IMG/VR virus record: IMGVR_UViG_3300042539_001659
Coordinates: 1-22,928 of that record
Length of the DNA stretch: 22,928 nt
Source of the DNA: a virus
Direction: 5' to 3' (one strand)
In this document: positions 4,016-18,392 of the stretch, piece after piece
Layout of the letters: every line of letters starts with the position of its first letter
How positions within the stretch are numbered: position 1 is the first letter of the stretch
Notes under the pieces: model-generated
Seen by the model: only the letters and a program-made list of their open reading frames with translations
What the model was told of the DNA's origin: nothing
Database searches by the model: none
Translations under genes and position numbers: made by a program

Positions 4016-6664
4016 TCAATTTCCTTCTCTGTGATCCAAAACCTTGTGGATTGTGTTCATTTTTTCGAGCGCCCGAACCAATATTTTTTCGGAGATCGAC
4101 CCAGGCGCAACGAAGATTTCCGCAGTGACTACGTTTTCTTGACCGAACCTGTCTAACCGGGAAACTGCTTGCTCGTTCTGTGCAGGCACCCAATCGGGTT
4201 CAGCCAAATAGCACCGTGAACAAACCTTCTGCAAACCATCCAAGCCGGTGCCCGCTGCCTGGATATTGCCGATGAACACGCGCACGTTACTCTGATTGAT
4301 AAAATCGTCAACCGCTTTTTGCCTCGCGGCCGGAGATTTCCGCCCATCGACGCGCACCGTACCGAAGCGAGACAATTCATTTTCGAAAATGTCGAGGACT
4401 TCCAAATGCCAGCCGAAGATCACCAGCTTTTCATCGGAGCCCTCAAGAAAATCGCGGGCATAGTCGGCGATCTGCGGCGCAAGAGCAATCCCCATCAATC
4501 GGCGCACCTGCGCGATATGTCCTAGGATTTCGAAATCCTTGGTCGTCTGGATATCGTCAATTGAGATATCCAAAAGCCCCTCAGCGTCGAGCGCCGAGCG
4601 GACATTCCCGCTTTCCTCGCAGCGCACCACAGCGTAGCGGGGCGGCTTCATGAACGTGAGCACGTCCTTTTTCTCGTGCCTCGCCATGACATTCACTCTA
4701 AGCCGATTTTGCAGTTCCGATTCCAGCGACGTACTCTCCAACTTGAACCGCTTGCCTTCGATCGTTTTCAGATCCGCTTGCCGATTGTAACGTTCCTTGA
4801 ATTTTTCCTCACTGGCAAAGTCGATGGCTTCCCAATCGAAAAACCGGAAAAGCACATAGCACTCTGACGGGCGATTGAGCAAAATGGTCCCTGTCAGGGC
4901 TAGGCGCTCTCGGCAATAGTGCGAGATCGCTTTCATCTTGTGATCGCCATGATGATAATCGCCGCGGGAATTGCCGATCACTGCGCGCGTGGTGAGTGCG
5001 TCGATATTTTTCATCTTGTGGGCTTCGTCGCATATCAGCACGTCCCATTCATATTTGGAAATCGCGCGGATGATCGCCGGGTTGCGCGCAGCTTCATAGC
5101 TGATGATCTGATAATGTGCCGTGGGGTGGATGCCGTCCTTGACCTTGAGCATCGTCGAAACCTTGACGCCAGGGATCGTGGACCACGCCTTGATCTGTTC
5201 TGCCCATTGGAGCCTCACCGACGCCGGCACGATCACGAGCACGCGCTGTGCTTCCCTCTCATTGCAGTAGGCGATCGATGTCGGCGTGTTGTGCGTGAGA
5301 GTATATCCTCTAGTGACGAAAAGCCCGCGAGGATCTGCAATCTTGATGCACCGCTGAAATTCCTCTCCATCAGGGACAATCTCAGAAATCGCGAGTTTGA
5401 TGTTTGACGGACGCCATTGGTCGGCTTTACGCACCAAATAAAAGGGGCAGAAATGTGTTTTCACATTCACTTGGTAATCAGTTCCCTTATCGTCTGACCG
5501 TTTGTAGACTCGAACCTTAGCCCATCCTCCAAGAGAGCGGACGAGTTGCGCAATATCTTCTGCAAGTCGTGAAGATTTGGTGTGATAAACGGTTCTGTTT
5601 CGGCTGCAGGAACCGTCAGTGTCCATAAGGCCCGCTAACAAATCCTGCCTTTGGTTTACCGAACCCATGAGATAATTTTCAGGAATGAAACGCTCGGGAC
5701 TTTTTACGTTAAGGCCGAGTGCTGCGATCATGTGATGAAATGCGGCACCTTTAGTGGGGTTGGAGATTATGTATTGCGGACAGTTAGGGTGCCTGTTTTC
5801 GACAAAATGAAATCCATTCGGCAAACACTTTTCCGCATTCTGCACTATTTCAATGTCCTGATCGGGGCACGAAAGCGCAACCTTTGTTCCTGTCAATGCA
5901 CCGTCACCGATCAGTGCACCAAGCAAATAGGGGTGTATGTCGAAATTTTTTTGCGCGTACTGAATCGGTTGCACCAGTGGGACATAAAAACGTGCGATTT
6001 GGCGAGGTACTCCGTTGCGCGTTCCTCCGCCAACCGTCAGTCCCCAATCCATGATTTGCTGTGTAGTCAACACTTCCGTCTTGAAACCGCAGCCTCCGCG
6101 CCGTTCGACTTCCCATAAATGTTCCGCATCACATCGAACGTAGCGACCATCCGAAAAGACGACTTTCCAAACTCGGCTCTTTTGAGGGCGATGCACTGCC
6201 TCAATTTGAACAGGTTGCCCATTATGCCCATAAACCCAAGCACCTGCATGCAAGTCTGAATTCTTGCGCCAGCCGAAGGGTGTCAGGATTGGCTCGGACA
6301 AAGGCAATCGTTTCCCGAGCCCCGGCTGATCGCCATTGATCCCGCCGCCCCTCTCCAGCAAGAAATCCAGTGTGGCTTTCTGATAATCCCACAGTTCCTT
6401 GCCTGGCGGCAGTCGGCGGGTTCCCTTGCCATCGAGCGCGCGGGATTTCTCGATCTGTTGGCGGTATGGGCCGAGCGTCGGCAGGCTCTCGTCGGCGATA
6501 TCAGCGAGCGAATACGGGTTAAGTGAGAAAAGCACAGCTTCGTTGCGACTGCTCGCACTCGTCGAGAACGTAAGCCCGCGATAGGCCATCAGGTTCGCAA
6601 TTTCCTTGCGATCCGAAATCGGTACGTGAAGGATGAAATTTTTACCGTTTTCGGAAACCTTCAC
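4016..6664 (-). CDS. SNF2-family DEAH-box helicase interrupted by an intein (882 aa precursor)
   Basis: A superfamily 2 ATPase of the SNF2/SMARCAL1-like type, common in phage replication operons. Before splicing, Walker A is split: GDQPGLGK (residues 111-118), then the intein (119-459), then TPTS, so splicing restores GLGKT. Motif II is DEAH at 546-549, motif III is LTGTILLNRP (590-599; most relatives have GTP where this has GTI), and motif VI is QAVSRLDRFGQ (832-842). The N-terminal 90 residues resemble the accessory domain before the helicase core. The mature protein would be about 541 aa. The start is a GTG overlapping the upstream EFDL stop (GTGA). Likely roles are fork remodelling or strand annealing on DNA. 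Confidence 0.88.
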   Translation of the reverse strand: MKVSENGKNFILHVPISDRKEIANLMAYRGLTFSTSASSRNEAVLFSLNPYSLADIADESLPTLGPYRQQIEKSRALDGKGTRRLPPGKELWDYQKATLDFLLERGGGINGDQPGLGKRLPLSEPILTPFGWRKNSDLHAGAWVYGHNGQPVQIEAVHRPQKSRVWKVVFSDGRYVRCDAEHLWEVERRGGCGFKTEVLTTQQIMDWGLTVGGGTRNGVPRQIARFYVPLVQPIQYAQKNFDIHPYLLGALIGDGALTGTKVALSCPDQDIEIVQNAEKCLPNGFHFVENRHPNCPQYIISNPTKGAAFHHMIAALGLNVKSPERFIPENYLMGSVNQRQDLLAGLMDTDGSCSRNRTVYHTKSSRLAEDIAQLVRSLGGWAKVRVYKRSDDKGTDYQVNVKTHFCPFYLVRKADQWRPSNIKLAISEIVPDGEEFQRCIKIADPRGLFVTRGYTLTHNTPTSIAYCNEREAQRVLVIVPASVRLQWAEQIKAWSTIPGVKVSTMLKVKDGIHPTAHYQIISYEAARNPAIIRAISKYEWDVLICDEAHKMKNIDALTTRAVIGNSRGDYHHGDHKMKAISHYCRERLALTGTILLNRPSECYVLFRFFDWEAIDFASEEKFKERYNRQADLKTIEGKRFKLESTSLESELQNRLRVNVMARHEKKDVLTFMKPPRYAVVRCEESGNVRSALDAEGLLDISIDDIQTTKDFEILGHIAQVRRLMGIALAPQIADYARDFLEGSDEKLVIFGWHLEVLDIFENELSRFGTVRVDGRKSPAARQKAVDDFINQSNVRVFIGNIQAAGTGLDGLQKVCSRCYLAEPDWVPAQNEQAVSRLDRFGQENVVTAEIFVAPGSISEKILVRALEKMNTIHKVLDHREGN
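5288..6310 (-). mobile_element. Class 3-like intein with LAGLIDADG homing endonuclease
   Basis: A 341-residue in-frame insertion between Lys118 and Thr460 of the helicase. Its first residue is Arg (codon CGA), not Cys or Ser, so a canonical class 1 N-terminal acyl shift is impossible. It carries the class 3 signature instead: Trp66 in block B (DAEHLWEV), Cys321 in block F (RCIKIADP) and Thr339 in block G, before the terminal His340-Asn341. The +1 residue is Thr. Two LAGLIDADG motifs are present, LLGALIGDGA (about 129-138) and LLAGLMDTDG (about 224-233), so the homing endonuclease looks intact. Bases inside look AT-richer than in the flanks, consistent with separate origin. Confidence 0.9.
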
Positions 6665-6870
6665 AAATCAAACTCCCTCGCAGGCTTCTCGTCCATGTAG
6701 GGCAGCGGGCCGATCCAGCCCGCCACGGTTCCGGCGACAGGCTCCTTGATATTCGAGAGCCAGCCGGTGCCGCCAGCAAGCCAAAAGCGAACCACAGTCG
6801 GCACTTCGAGGCCGTGCATATAGCAGACGTAATGTCCGGTTTCGCGCGGGGTGCCTGTCTGGATTTTCAC
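6661..6870 (-). CDS. Hypothetical protein ending in EFDL (69 aa)
   Basis: The start is a GTG with GGAG eight bases upstream; that GGAG lies inside the end of the preceding gene. The protein has the pattern [13 protein letters not shown], then [11 protein letters not shown], then GWIGPLP. This recalls small phage DUF551-like proteins with conserved Trp and Gly positions, but I am not certain of the family. It ends AREFDL (GAG TTT GAT TTG TGA), and its TGA overlaps the GTG of the helicase gene. One of nine E-[YF]-D-L endings in the window. Confidence 0.65.
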
Positions 6871-7769
6871 AGATCATACTCCAGCTTCATCGCAGATTTC
6901 CTTGACGACTTCGGCGAAGGCTTGCGCGGTTTTCGCGTCGAGCGCATTTCCGTAGGCGCGCAGGATCCCCACTCGACCGGCAATCCCATGAGCCAGCGGG
7001 AATGTGAGGGATTCAACGGGCCTCCAGCTTGGCTCTCCGGCAGGATTTCGACACAAAAGCCAATCTGCATCGTCGAGCGATCCAGCTTCCCGCGAATTGC
7101 GAACGGTCCCTGCACTGCTGATATCGTCGCTCGGCTGGAGTCCGTGTTGCCTCCCGGATTGTTCCCGTTCTGCACTGGCGTCCCTACTTGAGGAGTCGGC
7201 CAGCCCGACAAATTCACTGCCGATTGCAAGTTCAATCCGCCTTCCCTGCCCGATGTTCCCACTCCGGTCGAGTTGCTGGTCGTCGTTGTCGGCCAGCCTG
7301 ACAACCAGGCTGCTCGCCCCAAGAGCGCATTGATCGGCACGTTCAAGCATTCCTGCCCATCCTTCCAATCCCTCGTGGTGGTGGTGGGCCAGCCCGATAG
7401 CTGCGCTTGCATCGCTACGTCCGAGATCGTGTCGCCCATCTGTATCCCGCGAGCCTGCGCCGTCTGTTTGCGCTCCATGAATTTCTCGGCTGTCCCGTTC
7501 GCCGGATTGCTCACTGGAGTCCCCCAACCCGATAGCACAAACTCCATCGGAGATTGCGACAAAGTATAGGCGCTGACGCAGGTGCGCTTGGCCGAACCCC
7601 GCAGCGCACAGATCGCTCGCCCCGAAGGCGTAACCCGCTCCTTCCATGTCAGTCGATACAAGATCGAGCCATTGCAATCCGTCCTTGCTCGCAACTTGCT
7701 CTCCAACGATTGTTGAAGGGCGGCACTGGTCAATGAGCTCGAACCAGGTAGGCCACATGTGACGTTCAT
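6867..7769 (-). CDS. Overprinted protein in the +1 frame of the methyltransferase gene (300 aa)
   Basis: This frame stays open through the last three quarters of the methyltransferase gene and looks like a real protein family. It has [15 protein letters not shown] and [11 protein letters not shown] near the N-terminus, repeated '[14 protein letters not shown]' units, a NTDSSR segment, and [16 protein letters not shown] near the C-terminus. I recall phage proteins with these features, often annotated as methyltransferases. The start chosen, MNVTCG, has AGGGA seven bases upstream; a longer start at 7844 lacks a clear site. The 'GWPT' repeats are the same DNA as 'GLAD' repeats in the other frame. 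It ends KLEYDL, matching the ending shared by other genes here. Function is unknown; translation is inferred. Confidence 0.55.
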
Positions 7770-8049
7770 CAGCAAATCCCTTTTGTTTTCCTGCGGCACT
7801 GAACGGTTGACAGGGGCAAGAGCCTGTCCAGATCGGTCGATCATCAGACCAACCAGCCTGCCTCAGAGCATAGGACCAAACCCCAATCCCGGCGAAAAAA
7901 TGACATTGCGTGAATTGGTGCAGTTCCCACGCTTCCACGTCCTGAATTTTTCGCTCGTCGACGATCCCCGGCGCGATGTGACCGGCTGCAATCAAATTGC
8001 GCAGCCATTGGGCAGCAAATGGATCAGGCTCGTTATACCATGCGGTCAC
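6874..8049 (-). CDS. C5-cytosine DNA methyltransferase (391 aa)
   Basis: Transfers a methyl group from S-adenosylmethionine to cytosine C5 in DNA, probably protecting phage DNA from host restriction. Visible motifs: I, FFAGIG (51-56); IV, SCPCQPF with catalytic Cys80; VI, GEQVA (116-120), where Gln replaces the usual Asn of [15 protein letters not shown] (158-165); and X, YGNAL near residue 375. The region between VIII and X, where the target recognition domain lies, is full of 'GLADxx' segments and polar low-complexity sequence. The GTG start overlaps the stop of the preceding gene (GTGA). From codon 94 onward the DNA is also open in the +1 frame (see the overlapping gene), so its base composition is doubly constrained. 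Confidence 0.85.
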
Positions 8050-8195
8050 AGATCATACTCCGGTTCGGGGTATTTCCGCCATTCATATTTGTAAGATTCT
8101 GCGGAAGGGCACAATCTGATTGCGGCCACGACAGGTGAACGAAATTTGGATGCGTCGATCCAATCGCCGCCGTCAAAACGAATTTCTAATTTCAT
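8046..8195 (-). CDS. Hypothetical small protein ending in EYDL (49 aa)
   Basis: A short gene filling the space between the MerR-like gene and the methyltransferase. It reads MKLEIRFDGGDWIDAS, then a middle part, then KYPEPEYDL and TGA. An in-frame GTG two codons upstream (8201) overlaps the previous stop and could be the true start, giving 51 aa. Its stop overlaps the GTG of the methyltransferase. The 16 bases at its end (8046-8061) are identical to those at 6867-6882, where the overprinted frame ends. Function is unknown. Confidence 0.65.
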   Translation of the reverse strand: MKLEIRFDGGDWIDASKFRSPVVAAIRLCPSAESYKYEWRKYPEPEYDL

Positions 8196-8197
8196 TT

Positions 8198-8533
8198 TCA
8201 CAGATCGTACTCGATTGCAGTGCTTGCGGCTGGCGGCTTAGGCAAATTTTCACCCAGGCGCACGGCGGCGCGCATCTGATCATCAAGCCGGATCATGATC
8301 GCTTCATACACTTCTGGACCCCACTCGATCAGCATCAATTGGATCTGCTCGATGCTCCAACCGCCGAATTGCGCCGCAGCGATGATCTTGGCCTTATCGA
8401 TCTGTTCGGGAGTGAAGCGGCGCGTACCTTTCTCGGATCGCTCGACCTCGCCGAGCAAACCCTTTTCTTCCCAAAACCGAACCCCGCGCGGCGACGTGCA
8501 GCCCGCTCGCGCCATTTCTTCAACGGTGTGCAT
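8198..8533 (-). CDS. MerR-type winged-helix protein ending in EYDL (111 aa)
   Basis: The N-terminal 70 residues match a MerR DNA-binding domain: TVEEMARAG (helix-turn-helix), SPRGVRFWEEKGLL (second helix and wing), RRFTPEQIDK, and a helix leading to the C-terminal part. No effector-binding cysteines are visible. The ATG has GGGAG four bases upstream and lies inside the end of the preceding gene. It is probably a phage transcription regulator or excisionase-like architectural protein. The C-terminus, STAIEYDL, carries the shared ending (GAG TAC GAT CTG TGA). Confidence 0.7.
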   Translation of the reverse strand: MHTVEEMARAGCTSPRGVRFWEEKGLLGEVERSEKGTRRFTPEQIDKAKIIAAAQFGGWSIEQIQLMLIEWGPEVYEAIMIRLDDQMRAAVRLGENLPKPPAASTAIEYDL

Positions 8534-9918: not shown

Positions 9919-10503
9919 TCACTGTTCGTTATTGATAGAGGCGGGAGCCTCAGCCTGCGCGATCTGCGCGGTTAATGTGGCGAGGGCTTCAGAAGCTTCG
10001 TTGCAGATAACTTCCAAAGTCTCGGGATCACCACGACCGCGCGCGGGACAAATGCCGTGGCGGACTATACTCTCCAAAGCCTCCCTCGCTTCCCGCATGG
10101 CATCAAGCTGCGCGGAGGGGGTGACTAGATCAGTGCGGACATTCGCCGCCGGGCCAGTCGATCCAGCCATCATCGGCGAGGCATTTCTGCGTGGCGTAGG
10201 ATCAGCACTTTCGGGCAGAACCGTTGCCCTGTCCTTGCGCCGCCCCTTTACAGCGACAGGCGAAAGAGAACCTTGGCACTTCGCAATATGCTCCCGCGCG
10301 GCAACGGCTTCCTTGTTCCATGTCTCGCCGCGCTTGCCCGAATAGATCACCCCGACGCCGTGCTTTGTGCGAAACCGCAGCATCTCATAAGGATTGGTCG
10401 GGCCAAGAACTTCGCCGCCCGCTTCGATCAGCGCCTTACGGAACGTGTCCAGCCTCGCAGCATCACTCCCTTTGCCTGTGATGCGCTTTTCTTCGCGGTT
10501 CAT
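9919..10503 (-). CDS. Hypothetical protein (194 aa)
   Basis: The N-terminal 80 residues look like one folded domain that includes LDTFRKALIEAGGEVLGP and TKHGVGVIYSGKRGETWN. A Pro/Ser-rich linker follows, and then a helical C-terminal part (REALESIVRHG, EALATLTAQIAQAEA). The ATG overlaps the stop of the primase gene (ATGA), with GGAG eight bases upstream inside the primase EFDL codons, so translation of the two is probably coupled. Function is unknown. Confidence 0.65.
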   Translation of the reverse strand: MNREEKRITGKGSDAARLDTFRKALIEAGGEVLGPTNPYEMLRFRTKHGVGVIYSGKRGETWNKEAVAAREHIAKCQGSLSPVAVKGRRKDRATVLPESADPTPRRNASPMMAGSTGPAANVRTDLVTPSAQLDAMREAREALESIVRHGICPARGRGDPETLEVICNEASEALATLTAQIAQAEAPASINNEQ

Positions 10504-12386
10504 AAATCAAACTCCATTTTCTTCGGGATTGCCCATTTACCAGGTACAGGCCGTAAAAAAGTCAGGTCGTCATTTTTCAGTAATTGCTTGCGGACAACGT
10601 CTTGATCAATCGCATGCGTCCCGGCGATCGTCCGCTCCAGCACGGACGCGCTCGTTTCACCGCCGAGACCTGCTAGAACCTTCGTGACTTCCTCAACGCT
10701 CGCCCACGCATACCGGCTGGATTGAACCTTACCCGGCGACATATCAGCTAACGCCGCGGTACGTTCGAGTACAATCGAATTGCCGACTTCTTTCACTGCA
10801 AAGTAGCTGATTTCGTCGCTCACGTCTGCATCTTTTTGCTTGCGCACTCGCAACTCAGTCCCGCCCTGTTTCAGTTTGGTACTGATGACGGTATCCATAT
10901 TAGCATAGAAGGCGCTGGAGCCGCGCGCACCCTTCGCCTGATCCTTACCTGTGTGGTGAACCGCGAGCACAAAACACTCATAATAGCGCGCCAAGCTCTC
11001 CATGAAATTCGTGATCATGCTGGCGTCTTTGGCTGAATTTTCATCGAGCCCGGTAATCAGTCGTGTGAGAGTGTCGAGAATGATCAATGATGGCTTCGCT
11101 CTCAATTCCGCAAGGTCAGCTTTCACATGCTCCCAAGCGTCGGTATCAGTGTAAAAAGGGACTCGGTCCTTGATCAAAAATCTGTGGTCGTTTCGAAATT
11201 CGATTTCCTGCCATTCCATCCAAGCAGGCCAACGCTTTTTCGCAGTCGCAACCGGACCTTCACCAGCAAAGAACAAAACGTCATTTTTAACCGGCGGCGC
11301 ACCCCATTGACCGGGAAGGCCAAACGCAAGGCACAGGCCCATATCGAGCGCGAGGAATGATTTGTAACTGCCACTTTCCCCGTAGATCATCCCGATACCT
11401 TGTGCCGGGATCACCTGCGGAATAAGCCAAGCTGGGTCTTTCACACCGTCCGCATAATCGTGCAGGAATCGGATTTTATCGCGAGCCCGATCTACAGGGG
11501 CGGGTTGCTCGAATTCTTGTCCTGCGAACGCCGCGAAAGCATCTTCGTTCGCCTGAAAACCCTTGACGCCGCCCTCTGTGTCCTCTCCATAGCTGGCTGC
11601 GTTGCGGATTATCTGCTCCAACTCCCATTCATCCCACGGCGGCGAACAATGGGGATTCCAGTGCTCCCATAGGAGATCAAAGCACATTGCCGGCGAAATG
11701 GCCTTGTCGAGTATTGAGGCGGCAACCTTGAAGGCTTCGGAGTTCCCGCCGCGGCCCTCGATCGAAACACGCCCGTTCGCGACATAACCCTTCAAGAGAT
11801 CGAGAGCCCAAGACACATTGCGCGCCTGATCCGCATCGGGGTTTTTCGAAAGGCCTAGTGTGTCCGTCTTTTTGCGCTCAGGGACAATCGCCGAGACTGC
11901 GGCCGGGAGAGGTAAAATCTGACCACCGGGCAACGCTTCATAGCTGCCTTTTTCGGTTCGTGATCCAGGCAACAAGACATAGCCGCCCGAAATGATTTTT
12001 CCGTCTTTCCTGATCCCGCCGCGCGTGTCGATCCCTTCCGCAATGCGGCTGGCGGTGCTCGGGCCTTCGCCTCTGAAATAGATATGCAGTCCGCCGCGCG
12101 GCGTCCGCACCTGAAAGGCTTTACCGACCGCCTCACAGATGACGTGATCGCGCTCTAGCAGCTTATGCCAGTAATCCAGCCCCTGCGGGTCCACATCGAT
12201 AACAAAGAGCCCGCTAGGGCCGGTGGCGATCGCCCAATTGAAATCAGGATTGATGCGCTGCCATTCTGCGATCTGTGCCGGATCATCTGTGGCGACGTGC
12301 CACCCTTCGCGGGTCGCAGGAAGTTTGCCGAGCGGTACGCACGGAAAACACTTGCAGCCTCTTAGAATGTCCGGTAACTCTTGCAC
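10500..12386 (-). CDS. Primase-polymerase fused to a RepA-like ATPase/helicase domain (628 aa)
   Basis: A replication initiation enzyme. The N-terminal bifunctional prim-pol (archaeo-eukaryotic primase) domain has VIDVDP with metal-binding Asp64 and Asp66, GLHIYF with His101, and GIDTRG followed by GGYVLLPGS. After a helical linker comes a RecA-fold RepA/AAA_25 domain: Walker A GESGSYKS (336-343), Walker B SLIILD (Asp438) and sensor-like VHHTGK. Together these make primers and probably unwind DNA. I chose the GTG (MQELPDIL) because AGGA lies five bases upstream and it avoids the hairpin at 12425-12454; a TTG start at 12461 would include that hairpin. The C-terminus is KKMEFDL, one of the shared endings. 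Confidence 0.85.
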   Translation of the reverse strand: MQELPDILRGCKCFPCVPLGKLPATREGWHVATDDPAQIAEWQRINPDFNWAIATGPSGLFVIDVDPQGLDYWHKLLERDHVICEAVGKAFQVRTPRGGLHIYFRGEGPSTASRIAEGIDTRGGIRKDGKIISGGYVLLPGSRTEKGSYEALPGGQILPLPAAVSAIVPERKKTDTLGLSKNPDADQARNVSWALDLLKGYVANGRVSIEGRGGNSEAFKVAASILDKAISPAMCFDLLWEHWNPHCSPPWDEWELEQIIRNAASYGEDTEGGVKGFQANEDAFAAFAGQEFEQPAPVDRARDKIRFLHDYADGVKDPAWLIPQVIPAQGIGMIYGESGSYKSFLALDMGLCLAFGLPGQWGAPPVKNDVLFFAGEGPVATAKKRWPAWMEWQEIEFRNDHRFLIKDRVPFYTDTDAWEHVKADLAELRAKPSLIILDTLTRLITGLDENSAKDASMITNFMESLARYYECFVLAVHHTGKDQAKGARGSSAFYANMDTVISTKLKQGGTELRVRKQKDADVSDEISYFAVKEVGNSIVLERTAALADMSPGKVQSSRYAWASVEEVTKVLAGLGGETSASVLERTIAGTHAIDQDVVRKQLLKNDDLTFLRPVPGKWAIPKKMEFDL

Positions 12387-12547: not shown

Positions 12548-12913
12548 TCACAGATCGAATTGCTGCCAGCGGTCGCTTTTAAACATCGTGCGCAGCAGGT
12601 CGTCAGGATCGACAGGCCGCGTCCCGTTCGCACAGGTGAAGCCATCGGCGAATTCTTCTATGATCTTCTCCAGGCTCTCCAGCAGATCGAGACGCCCACA
12701 AGCCCAATCGGCGATACGCTGATGCTCGTGCAAATCTAGCTTGGAGCCATTGACGATATCGGGCGCTTTGCAGTGAATATCCTCCAGCGCCGCCTCCATC
12801 GCCTCGAATTCACCTTCGCCATCCATAAGATCCAGCAATCCTGGAGCCCATTCGCAACCAGCTAACCTTCGGCTTTCCAGCCATTCGCGCGCGTTCAAAT
12901 GCACATGAGCCAT
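12548..12913 (-). CDS. Hypothetical acidic protein ending in QFDL (121 aa)
   Basis: An acidic, mostly helical protein (REWLESRRLAGCEW, MEAALEDIHCKAP, LLESLEKIIEEFADGF). The ATG overlaps the upstream stop (ATGA). It ends RWQQFDL and TGA: the last two residues and the aromatic match the EYDL group, but Gln replaces Glu. Downstream there is an 80-base gap with the terminator-like hairpin before the primase start. Function is unknown. Confidence 0.65.
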   Translation of the reverse strand: MAHVHLNAREWLESRRLAGCEWAPGLLDLMDGEGEFEAMEAALEDIHCKAPDIVNGSKLDLHEHQRIADWACGRLDLLESLEKIIEEFADGFTCANGTRPVDPDDLLRTMFKSDRWQQFDL

Positions 12914-13135: not shown

Positions 13136-13906
13136 TTAATCCTTCACGGGATTATCAAAGCCATGAATGCGACATTGCAATTCAAGTAGGTCAAGGATCG
13201 CAAATGTCTCTTCGCCAAGCGGCGTTCCTGCACGTGTCTTTGTCCAGTGCGAGCGTGCTTCCTCGAATGAGAAATAGCGGCACCCTGCGATGATGCGGGG
13301 ACCTTCCGGCGTGGAGGTGATGGTGAAGGTGTAATTGTCGCTGCGGACGGCAGTGAGGTTGACCTTGCAGACCCGTGCATTGCCGTAGACCCGTGCATTG
13401 CCGTAGACCCGTGCATCGCCGGAAACCCGTGCATCGCCGGAAACCCGTGCATTGCCGGAAACCCGTGCATTGCCGTAGACCCGTGCATCGCCGGAAACCC
13501 GTGCAAAGCCGTAGACCTGCGCATTGTCGTAGACCTGTACATTGCTGGAGACCCATGCATTGCCGTAGACCCATGCATTGCCGTAGACCCGTGCATTGCT
13601 GTAGACCCACGCATCGCCGGAGACCAGCGCATCGCCGTGGACCCGTGCATTGTCGAAGACCCGTGCATCGCCGGAAACCCATGCATTGCCCGAGACCCGT
13701 GCATTGCCAGAGACCTGTGCATTGCTGTAGACCCACGCATTGCCGCAGACTGAAAGATTGTCTTCTTTCTCGACCCACCCGCCAAGCATTCCGGCAACAA
13801 GGTCGAGTGCCGCAATGTCAGCCGTGGCACGGATGCGGTGAAGGGTGCGACCAAGCAATTGCTTGGTTTCGCCGGTCGCTTCAAATTTCGCATTCTTGAA
13901 AGTCAT
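13136..13906 (-). CDS. Hexapeptide-repeat (left-handed beta-helix) phage protein (256 aa)
   Basis: After an N-terminal domain of about 80 residues, 21 perfect-length hexapeptides follow (DNA 13370-13747), mostly of the form Y/S-G-N/D-A-R/W-V. This is the pattern of a left-handed parallel beta-helix, as in bacterial hexapeptide acyltransferases, and of phage proteins with 'GNARVYG' repeats of unknown function. The C-terminal 70 residues form a separate domain. The ATG (MTFKNAKF) is preceded by AGGAGAAC; an upstream GTG overlapping the previous stop has no such site. The repeats keep several other frames open, which are not genes. No catalytic His is evident in the repeats except one HGDALV unit. 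Confidence 0.8.
   Translation of the reverse strand: MTFKNAKFEATGETKQLLGRTLHRIRATADIAALDLVAGMLGGWVEKEDNLSVCGNAWVYSNAQVSGNARVSGNAWVSGDARVFDNARVHGDALVSGDAWVYSNARVYGNAWVYGNAWVSSNVQVYDNAQVYGFARVSGDARVYGNARVSGNARVSGDARVSGDARVYGNARVYGNARVCKVNLTAVRSDNYTFTITSTPEGPRIIAGCRYFSFEEARSHWTKTRAGTPLGEETFAILDLLELQCRIHGFDNPVKD
13370..13747 (-). repeat. 21 tandem 18-bp units coding for hexapeptides
   Basis: Each unit is close to TACGGCAATGCACGGGTC on the minus strand, with changes mostly at codon 1 (Tyr, Ser, Phe, His), codon 3 (Asn or Asp) and codon 5 (Arg, Trp, Gln, Leu). All units are exactly 18 bp, so the array can gain or lose units without a frameshift. There are no unique spacers, so it is not a CRISPR array. 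Confidence 0.9.
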
Positions 13907-13941
13907 AACACTGTTCTCCTGTTTATAGATATTACGTAGCG

Positions 13942-14517
13942 TCACAAATCCAGAGACGCAAGTGAATTCGGGCGAGCGTACAAGGTCACATTGCGACCTG
14001 CGCGCTTTTCATAGGTAAACCAATCGGCGAAGCTTTCCAGCTTGCGCACACGTGATAGAGCGCGCGGAATTCGTGGTGCGTCAAATTCCCTGAGATTGGT
14101 CGGCGAGGCCAAGAGCAACCGACATGCAATCCAAGCATGGCTTACGGACTCGGCTGGCAAAATAGACTTGATCCAGGTTGCGAGCATATCGACTGCGACA
14201 GGATCGCCGCGCGCTGCATCACTGATCGCCGCGACAATCTCGATAGGCGCAGTTTCGTGTGTCGCATCGCCGATCGCGTCTAGCTGCTCTTGAGCCCTGC
14301 CAGCGTAGCGACCCAGGGACAGTATCAAGGCCGGGTTATCAGCGAGCGCGGACAATTCCAGAGCAGACAAAGGCGAGCGGTTGGTAAGTGTGCCGATAAT
14401 CCCGACACAAGCCGCATCCGTTACATCAGCGACGCGCAAGACGCCTGCCTTGAGCATTAGCTTGGCCTTTTTGTGAGATACCCGGAATTTCTCGCAGAAT
14501 TCTAAAAGCGTCATCAT
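13942..14517 (-). CDS. Hypothetical protein with N-terminal helix-turn-helix-like segment (191 aa)
   Basis: The first 35 residues (LLEFCEKFRVSHKKAKLMLKAGVL) look like a winged helix or excisionase-like DNA-binding segment. The rest is helical (SALELSALADNPALILSL, VAVDMLATWIKSIL), and a C-terminal part is rich in Arg. Tandem ATG codons follow AAGGA. The product ends SLASLDL, a weaker relative of the EYDL ending (GAT TTG TGA is kept). Function is unknown. Confidence 0.65.
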   Translation of the reverse strand: MMTLLEFCEKFRVSHKKAKLMLKAGVLRVADVTDAACVGIIGTLTNRSPLSALELSALADNPALILSLGRYAGRAQEQLDAIGDATHETAPIEIVAAISDAARGDPVAVDMLATWIKSILPAESVSHAWIACRLLLASPTNLREFDAPRIPRALSRVRKLESFADWFTYEKRAGRNVTLYARPNSLASLDL

Positions 14518-17587: not shown

Positions 17588-17925
17588 GCGACAAACCCAC
17601 TGGCACGGATCTGATGCAGCCGACGCGCGACCTCGCGAAGCTGCCGATGATCTCGGCCGAGCAGTATCAGCACGTGGGCCGCTATGCCGGCGCTCTCGTC
17701 ATGTCCTGCTTTGCACAGATCGGCGGCTTGGAGCGCATGGCCTCGTGGGCTGATAGCAACCCGACCGACTTCTACACGAAGCTGTTCCCCAAGATGATCT
17801 CTCGCAGCACACAGGTTGACGTGAGCGGGACGCTGACGATCGATGACGCGATCTCCCGGCTGGAGCGGCAGAGCGACACCGTCGATGCGACCTTCGAGGA
17901 AATCCCTCAAGAATATGATTTGTGA
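17584..17925 (+). CDS. Candidate terminase small subunit ending in EYDL (113 aa)
   Basis: The middle segment, CFAQIGGLERMASWADSNP followed by DFYTKLFPKM, matches a pattern in phage proteins encoded just before the large terminase, where 'WA..N...FY....KL.P' recurs. Some are annotated as small terminase, most as hypothetical. No clear DNA-binding domain is visible in the N-terminus, so the call is tentative. The C-terminus, IPQEYDL, is encoded GAA TAT GAT TTG TGA. Its end forms the left copy of the 41-bp direct repeat. Confidence 0.5.
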   Translation: MSDKPTGTDLMQPTRDLAKLPMISAEQYQHVGRYAGALVMSCFAQIGGLERMASWADSNPTDFYTKLFPKMISRSTQVDVSGTLTIDDAISRLERQSDTVDATFEEIPQEYDL

Positions 17926-17951
17926 ACCGGCATAGGAGAACGATGCCATGA
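17911..17951 (+). repeat. 41-bp direct repeat, copy 1
   Basis: Covers the last four codons (EYDL) and stop of the upstream gene, then a spacer with the AGGAG ribosome-binding site, and the ATGA of the next gene. Copy 2 at 18116-18156 differs at one base (TAT/TAC, synonymous). Spacing between copies is 205 bp. Confidence 0.9.
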
Positions 17952-18130
17952 TCGTCGAGAAAATTAAAGAATTGCTTTTGAAGGAAGATGGGTTTTTCCA
18001 TGTTACAGACGCGCGAGGACATAAGACGATAGTGATTGAAGGACCATTTTCGTCACAAGATAAACTGGAGAGACATACAGGTAAAACCAAAAATTCGGTT
18101 ACTCGTATTGTAACCGAATACGATTTGTGA
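17948..18130 (+). CDS. Hypothetical cassette-like protein ending in EYDL (60 aa)
   Basis: Reads MIVEKIKELLLKEDGFFHV, then KTIVIEGPFSS and a basic segment, RHTGKTKNSVTRIV, before TEYDL. The gene is visibly AT-richer than its neighbours. It is bracketed exactly by the two 41-bp repeats, so that removing one repeat plus the gene would leave a perfect junction between the flanking genes. This suggests recent gain by homologous recombination or exchange. Function is unknown. Confidence 0.65.
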   Translation: MIVEKIKELLLKEDGFFHVTDARGHKTIVIEGPFSSQDKLERHTGKTKNSVTRIVTEYDL

Positions 18131-18156
18131 ACCGGCATAGGAGAACGATGCCATGA
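18116..18156 (+). repeat. 41-bp direct repeat, copy 2
   Basis: Same element as 17911-17951 with one synonymous change; it ends the 60-codon gene and starts the 79-codon gene. Both copies contain a nine-codon GTG frame that bridges the two genes with four-base overlaps on each side. Confidence 0.9.
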
Positions 18157-18392
18157 CCTACGAACGAATGCACGGACGCGAGGAAGGTATTGCCGAGCGC
18201 CTGAAAATGTGGCGACGTGCTCTTGCCACCGACAAGAGTTATCCGTGGCTCGGCACCGGCATCTGCGACGACCTCGTAACTGCCGCTCGAATGCTCGGCG
18301 CTGATGTGTCCGAATTCGACCAACACAATGACGAACCGACCTTGCCTGAGATTGTGCCTGCCGAGCCTGTAGTAATGGAGTTTGACCTGTGA
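18153..18392 (+). CDS. Hypothetical protein ending in EFDL (79 aa)
   Basis: The N-terminal half is helical (GIAERLKMWRRALATDKSY, CDDLVTAARMLGADVSEF) and the C-terminal half is acidic and Pro-rich (EPTLPEIVPAEPVVMEFDL). AGGAG in the direct repeat precedes the ATG. Its TGA overlaps the GTG of the MazG-like gene, and GGAG within the EFDL codons sits eight bases before that GTG. Function is unknown. Confidence 0.65.
   Translation: MTYERMHGREEGIAERLKMWRRALATDKSYPWLGTGICDDLVTAARMLGADVSEFDQHNDEPTLPEIVPAEPVVMEFDL

Follow-up and report, generated by a model that had tools for sequence, protein, structure and literature searches.

M.EcoHK31I is a C5-methyltransferase composed of two polypeptides (YGGCCR), the smaller of which is translated from a different frame within the large-subunit gene. 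It is the closest precedent for the locus described here. The large polypeptide holds motifs I-VIII and X and the small polypeptide holds motif IX (PMC3404938), and the enzyme has been termed naturally split (PMC3439449). According to the title of a 1995 paper, quoted in PMC3404938, two proteins are required in vitro. In M.AquI, the larger subunit carries motifs I-VIII and the smaller carries the distal variable region with motifs IX-X, and M.SssI fragments complement one another best if the enzyme is divided between motif VIII and the recognition domain (PMC3404938). Several tandem recognition domains, for several targets, occur in the Bacillus phage methyltransferases SPR, phi3T and H2 (PMC8936443). 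The part of the literature on overprinted or overlapping methyltransferase genes that we covered gave no description of a case such as this one beyond the remarks on EcoHK31I and AquI. New here are the scale, the module shuffling and the presence of what is probably the recognition region in a hidden frame.

We analyzed a 22,928-nt stretch of DNA from an IMG/VR virus record (the window). Two overlapping reading frames, termed B and A (+1 to B), are present on its minus strand, with the following features:

6874-8049, minus strand: frame B, predicted catalytic subunit with C5-methyltransferase motifs I-VIII and X, 391 aa, GTG start (PF00145, PHROG 363)
6867-7844, minus strand: frame A, predicted overprinted second protein, 325 aa from the ATG at 7844 (ORF, PHROG, tblastn, constraint)
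7882-7899, minus strand: motif I of B, FFAGIG (invariant columns)
7798-7815, minus strand: motif IV of B, PCQPFS with the catalytic Cys (conserved columns)
7777-7784, minus strand: AAAAGGGA, Shine-Dalgarno-like, 7 nt upstream of the ATG at 7769 (sequence)
7558-7590, minus strand: motif VIII of B (conserved columns)
7395-7529, minus strand: module 1 of A, ending in AQLS (module clustering)
7299-7394, minus strand: module 2 of A, from a cluster present in 15 proteins (module clustering)
7206-7298, minus strand: module 3 of A, from a cluster present in 9 proteins (module clustering)
7071-7205, minus strand: module 4 of A, from a cluster present in 20 proteins (module clustering)
6969-7016, minus strand: motif-IX-like segment of A (conserved C-terminus of A; order VIII, modules, IX, X in the single chain of PHappiness gp71)
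6943-6960, minus strand: motif X of B, RAYGNA; A reads the same bases within a basic, Ser/Pro-rich tail (conserved columns)
6867-6881, minus strand: GAGTATGATCTGTGA box, encoding the EYDL tail and stop of A and sharing bases with the GTG at which the following small ORF starts (sequence)

Frame A has no stop between 7859 and the TGA at 6867, a stretch of 331 codons from one stop to the next. Its ATGs in the window are at 7844 and 7769, the second of which coincides with codon 94 of B and would give a protein of 300 aa. The GLAD/GLAHHHH segments of B and the GWPT segments of A are identical bases. These reading frames and shared bases confirm a preliminary description of the DNA, in which the methyltransferase frame and the +1 frame were both noted as open for about 300 codons.

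Searches with both translations, which that description had called for, gave informative matches. B matched PF00145 over residues 74-168 only (5e-14) and PHROG 363 over residues 2-386 (3e-73), and A matched PHROG 31772 (5e-24) and PHROG 1008 (2e-21). All three PHROGs are labelled DNA methyltransferase; they thus already hold both frames, as separate families with no mention of a shared locus. We identified motifs I, IV (PCQ), VI, VIII and X of the C5-methyltransferases (PF00145) in B. The recognition domain and motif IX, which are expected in the same chain, are missing from B, and a motif-IX-like segment is found in A. Searches of phage records by tblastn with A gave matches in 108 records (best, 38% identity over 91%), with A aligned over at least 80% of its length in 38 of them, and many B alignments are split into N- and C-terminal pieces around the variable region. 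No informative match came from Pfam or NCBIfam with A as the query, nor with forms of A that carry motif X.

We propose that the locus encodes a naturally split C5-methyltransferase, with both subunits read from shared DNA in two frames (probability about 0.8). With motifs I-VIII and X, B would bind SAM and catalyse the reaction. Translation of A would begin at a start codon of its own, either within B or where B begins. A would recognize the target through its SGWPTP module array, would contribute motif IX, and would bind B to form the active enzyme. The stretch of B opposite the A modules may serve as a disordered tether, free of stops so that motif X stays attached.

As far as its published description goes, M.EcoHK31I has the same division as the window, with motifs I-VIII and X in one chain and motif IX in the other. 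However, its recognition domain is assigned to the large subunit, whereas in the window locus this domain is apparently in A, which holds the constrained sequence between motifs VIII and IX. M.EcoHK31I also belongs to a restriction-modification system, unlike A and B, which are phage and prophage genes with module arrays. M.AquI alpha/beta has both motifs IX and X in the second subunit, whereas the window keeps motif X in B, so that the overlap spans the whole 3' part. The tandem domains of SPR, phi3T and H2 are like the modules of A, but are found in a single chain and one frame.

Taken alone, the window cannot settle whether the open +1 frame arose by chance, as 11 of 500 synonymous shuffles of B yield an equally long +1 run. 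Thus, we examined the window's methyltransferase family (G1, 100 loci) and a distant second family (G2, 81 loci), reached via locus L018; B of this locus encodes a C5-methyltransferase that carries motifs I-VIII and X. The sets were thinned to 91 (G1) and 63 (G2); the sequences are related and the trials are not independent, and the effects are large. In G1, the +1 frame is open for at least 240 codons in 99 of 100 loci, and the lone exception has a truncated B. It is open over nearly the whole gene in all 81 G2 loci, including some with GC3 as low as 0.33, and the +2 frame in this family is full of stops. When B is held and its codons are permuted synonymously between motifs VIII and X, 102 and 35 stops are expected in A for the two families and 0 and 0 are observed. 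With A held instead, 221 and 113 stops are expected in B, again with 0 and 0 observed. Conventional C5-methyltransferases of streptococcal phages, used as a control, have 16.6 stops per gene in the +1 frame. At the level of sequence, these counts reject chance as an explanation for the openness of both frames, in both directions.

Patterns of substitution indicate which frame is constrained where. At shared fourfold codons of G1, wobble identity is 0.29-0.37 over B codons 1-80, climbs to 0.54 at codons 81-100, reaches 0.67-0.71 over codons 101-180, and returns to high values in the C-terminal region. Synonymous constraint from A thus sets in near motif IV of B (codons 81-100) in these relatives. 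The ratio of A-frame identity to that expected from synonymous shuffles is 1.11 in the B-only part (codons 1-68), and 1.72, 2.13 and 1.95 in three segments of the overlap. G1 mismatch rates at the first, second and third positions of B codons are 0.18/0.14/0.55 over the B-only part; from motif VIII to motif X they become 0.32/0.16/0.10, so that the maximum there shifts to the third position of A. The same pattern is seen in G2 (0.44/0.20/0.18 between VIII and X). Sites in this region that are fourfold-silent in A, and mostly change B, differ in 0.43 of comparisons, versus 0.07 for sites that are silent in B but change A. The conventional streptococcal-phage enzymes have their maximum at the third position throughout (0.164/0.076/0.329 in the variable region), with no flip of the substitution phase.

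The phase flip and the silent-site rates argue that selection between motifs VIII and X acts on the A protein. By these measures A alone is constrained there, with B kept free of stops and its sequence close to unconstrained, and both frames are constrained in the catalytic and C-terminal parts. The locus thus has the purifying selection on both frames that is looked for in overlapping genes, with B showing only stop avoidance over the modules. A chance open frame was rejected on the two-way shuffles, the substitution phase and the conventional-enzyme control. The preliminary description had suggested that both frames are coding, and the conservation of the open +1 frame in 99 of 100 and 81 of 81 homologues bears this out at the sequence level, with expression as the expected consequence. 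Stops in the +1 frame of homologues, or constraint on one frame only, would have spoken against it; no stop closes A in these loci, and the constraint falls on both frames over the catalytic and C-terminal parts. It had also viewed the second protein as overlapping the target-recognition region of the methyltransferase. The overprinting itself stands, but B is nearly unconstrained between VIII and X, and thus A most likely is the recognition region rather than a protein that overlaps it.

Start sites are consistent with translation of both products. In G2, the sequence rTGAATGAGyTGGCT holds the start of B and, 4 nt on, the ATG of A. This A-frame ATG is kept in 59 of 63 loci, even where B begins further upstream; in loci of the latter kind, a purine-rich sequence resembling a Shine-Dalgarno site often precedes it inside B. 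For 75 of 91 G1 loci, the A frame opens within B codons 20-39, and 72 of 91 have a Shine-Dalgarno-like site with an A-frame ATG at B codon 27, 31, 37 or 41. Arg33 of B is encoded by AGG, which creates AGGAG, in 30 of 91 loci, compared with 8 of 310 other Arg codons within codons 1-68 of B. This pattern does not hold for the small clade that includes the window. In the window, the upstream part of A is closed by a stop and lost, and the ATG at 7844 lacks a Shine-Dalgarno sequence, whereas the ATG at 7769 is preceded by AAAAGGGA. A start at 7769, as first suggested for this DNA, is plausible for the window's clade, but does not extend to most relatives, in which A starts upstream (B codons 27-41, with a Shine-Dalgarno sequence).

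The EYDL ending of A, initially regarded as its signature, is present but is not particular to A. Ten otherwise unrelated ORFs of the window share an E[YF]DL (or QFDL) terminus. The sequence that encodes it, GARTWYGAYYTGTGA, has 10 matches with up to one mismatch in the window versus 0.03 expected. The boxes (by match to GARTWYGAYYTGTGA) are as follows:

489-503, 6661-6675, 6867-6881, 8046-8060, 8198-8212, 10500-10514 and 12548-12562, minus strand: E[YF]DL boxes
17911-17925, 18116-18130 and 18378-18392, plus strand: E[YF]DL boxes

Synonymous codon differences occur among the boxes, and for two or three of them the stop does not coincide with the start of a gene. Thus, the sequence hints at a C-terminal peptide tag shared by about ten ORFs of this phage, rather than only a DNA box associated with starts. 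The relative L020 has IYDL at the end of A and EFDL at the end of B. Identical copies of TGTGAACCGGCATAGGAGAACGATGC follow two different EYDL-ending ORFs (window positions ~17920-17946 and 18125-18151, plus strand), apparently a duplicated junction.

Two other genes of the window have unusual structures. An SNF2-type helicase (4019-6664, minus strand) carries a LAGLIDADG/homing-endonuclease insertion directly after Walker A (GLGK). The insertion ends in TLTHN before a Thr and has no obvious N-terminal Cys or Ser; judging from its sequence, it is probably an intein. A YdcK-type beta-solenoid repeat protein with VxGNARVxG repeats is encoded at 13139-13945 (minus strand), and because several repeat frames are open in this gene there are long spurious ORFs.

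Proteins encoded by frame A consist of a conserved N-terminal part, 1-5 (usually 3-4) modules, and a conserved C-terminus. The modules have a median length of 39 aa and each begins with [S/A]GWPTPxxxD. The 288 modules fall into 108 clusters, which occur in 90 distinct orders in 91 proteins, and one cluster adjoins up to 32 different neighbours. Thus, the modules are shuffled between phages. Tandem, exchangeable modules in the variable region are a feature of multispecific methyltransferases, found here in frame A. By analogy, each module may be one recognition domain, and exchange of modules between phages would alter the sequences that are methylated and thereby the set of restriction systems evaded. 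The segment at the C-terminus of A is motif-IX-like in its position before motif X and in its spacing, L-[NT]-P-x5-L-[MQ]-G-x-P, which is also that of the conventional motif IX of streptococcal enzymes (RKLTPRECWRLQGFPDW). Profile comparison of A-type proteins with conventional enzymes gave a weak match (61.5%). HHalign comparisons link A of the window with an actinophage-type family (95.9%, E 6e-9), A of G2 with the same family (99.9%, E 2.6e-34), and A of G2 with A of G1 (97.8%, E 7.5e-13).

In some relatives the motifs are divided differently. We examined a random sample of 80 IMG/VR loci, picked by a DNA pattern for the WVEWLMG segment of A. Motifs I-VIII and X are in one ORF opposite A in 64 of them. 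In L217 and L227, the catalytic ORF ends just past motif VIII and A spans the modules, IX and X; L260 is the end of an A of this kind. In L208 and L230, B is broken by a stop opposite the modules and A is intact. A extends past the end of the catalytic ORF in L266, where motif X may be elsewhere. The A and B halves of L205 (897-1780) and L218 (4312-5167) look frame-swapped inside the overlap, as a single-base indel would produce; this could be an assembly error, which IMG/VR contigs may contain, or a natural frame exchange.

Whenever A is an ORF of its own in the actinophage-type relatives, its frame is shifted by +1 from the catalytic one. Mycobacteriophage Twister encodes motifs I-VIII in gp79 and the modules, IX and X in gp78, in +1, near the M.AquI split, as are L217 and L227. 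Twister 79/78 and Arthrobacter phage KHumphrey 42/43 are short-overlap versions of the same two proteins, with an open-frame overlap of ~180-390 nt, versus ~980 nt in the window, and with motif X in A. In PHappiness gp71, motifs I-VIII, modules, IX and X follow one another in a single chain, and fused single-chain forms also occur in L314, L493, L495, L496 and L500. The best stretches in searches of fused proteins against Pfam and NCBIfam stop at motif VIII.

The pair is also found in bacteria. All 80 bacterial-genome loci with A also hold B; most of these loci belong to Proteobacteria, and a few are in MAGs that were placed in other groups. A megablast search of E. coli genomes for N15-like copies found none. 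Only B is annotated in N15 (gene 58; A lies unannotated at positions 1474-2199 of L023), Escherichia phage Golestan (L317) and Erwinia phage 59, only A is annotated in Pseudomonas phage phPA-G (L316), and pieces are annotated in Erythrobacter phage ZS04.

A could be a real overprinted protein that is not a methyltransferase subunit, for example an anti-restriction or regulatory protein trapped in the gene. We regard this as unlikely. Motif X is mostly in B, which could be complete except for recognition, and A has no structural match to a recognition domain. PDB sequence searches and Foldseek with A found no recognition-domain fold, but the AlphaFold models of A alone (pLDDT 57-60 in both families) are so poor that the fold search result carries no meaning. 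Against a role outside the enzyme are the single-chain fusions of I-VIII, modules, IX and X (PHappiness, L493, L495, L496, L500), the presence of motif X in A where the catalytic ORF lacks it, and the joint occurrence of A and B in all 80 bacterial-genome loci.

Alternatively, ribosomes translating B could undergo programmed frameshifting near motif VIII, and A would then exist solely as a continuation of B, in a chain of I-VIII, modules and IX. The joined order fits a conventional enzyme, and frame fusions have occurred in evolution. This is nevertheless very improbable given that in G2 a separate start for A lies at motif I or ahead of it and in most of G1 a Shine-Dalgarno site with an ATG for A occurs at B codons 27-41, that constraint on A reaches well upstream of motif VIII, and that motif X would be lost unless there were a second shift. 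We give hardly any credence to a third explanation, in which A is only a mirror of B, with the +1 frame kept open and similar by codon or composition constraints or by recombination sites at module borders. The two frames do share their bases, and the window alone is only mildly unusual (11 of 500). However, B-synonymous shuffles fail to reproduce an open, conserved +1 frame, substitutions between VIII and X track the codon phase of A, conventional enzymes have neither the open frame nor the flip, and A is open where B is closed.

If the split-enzyme reading is right, very many phage and prophage genes annotated as a lone cytosine methyltransferase or an isolated hypothetical protein each encode one subunit of a pair, and the part that sets specificity was overlooked because it is in the other frame. 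This would account for methyltransferases with no apparent recognition domain, and their targets would become readable from the modules. As tandem recognition domains are known in Bacillus phage enzymes, the module arrays of A may confer several targets. The relatives would also provide a large natural data set on the origin of overlapping genes, in which fused chains, short overlaps and full overprints form a series. A broader possibility, to which we give even odds, is that a large class of phage "Dcm" enzymes are half-enzymes that draw their specificity from a shuffled, multi-target subunit in the +1 frame, so that phages may rewrite their methylation by swapping modules while the opposite frame is merely kept free of stops.
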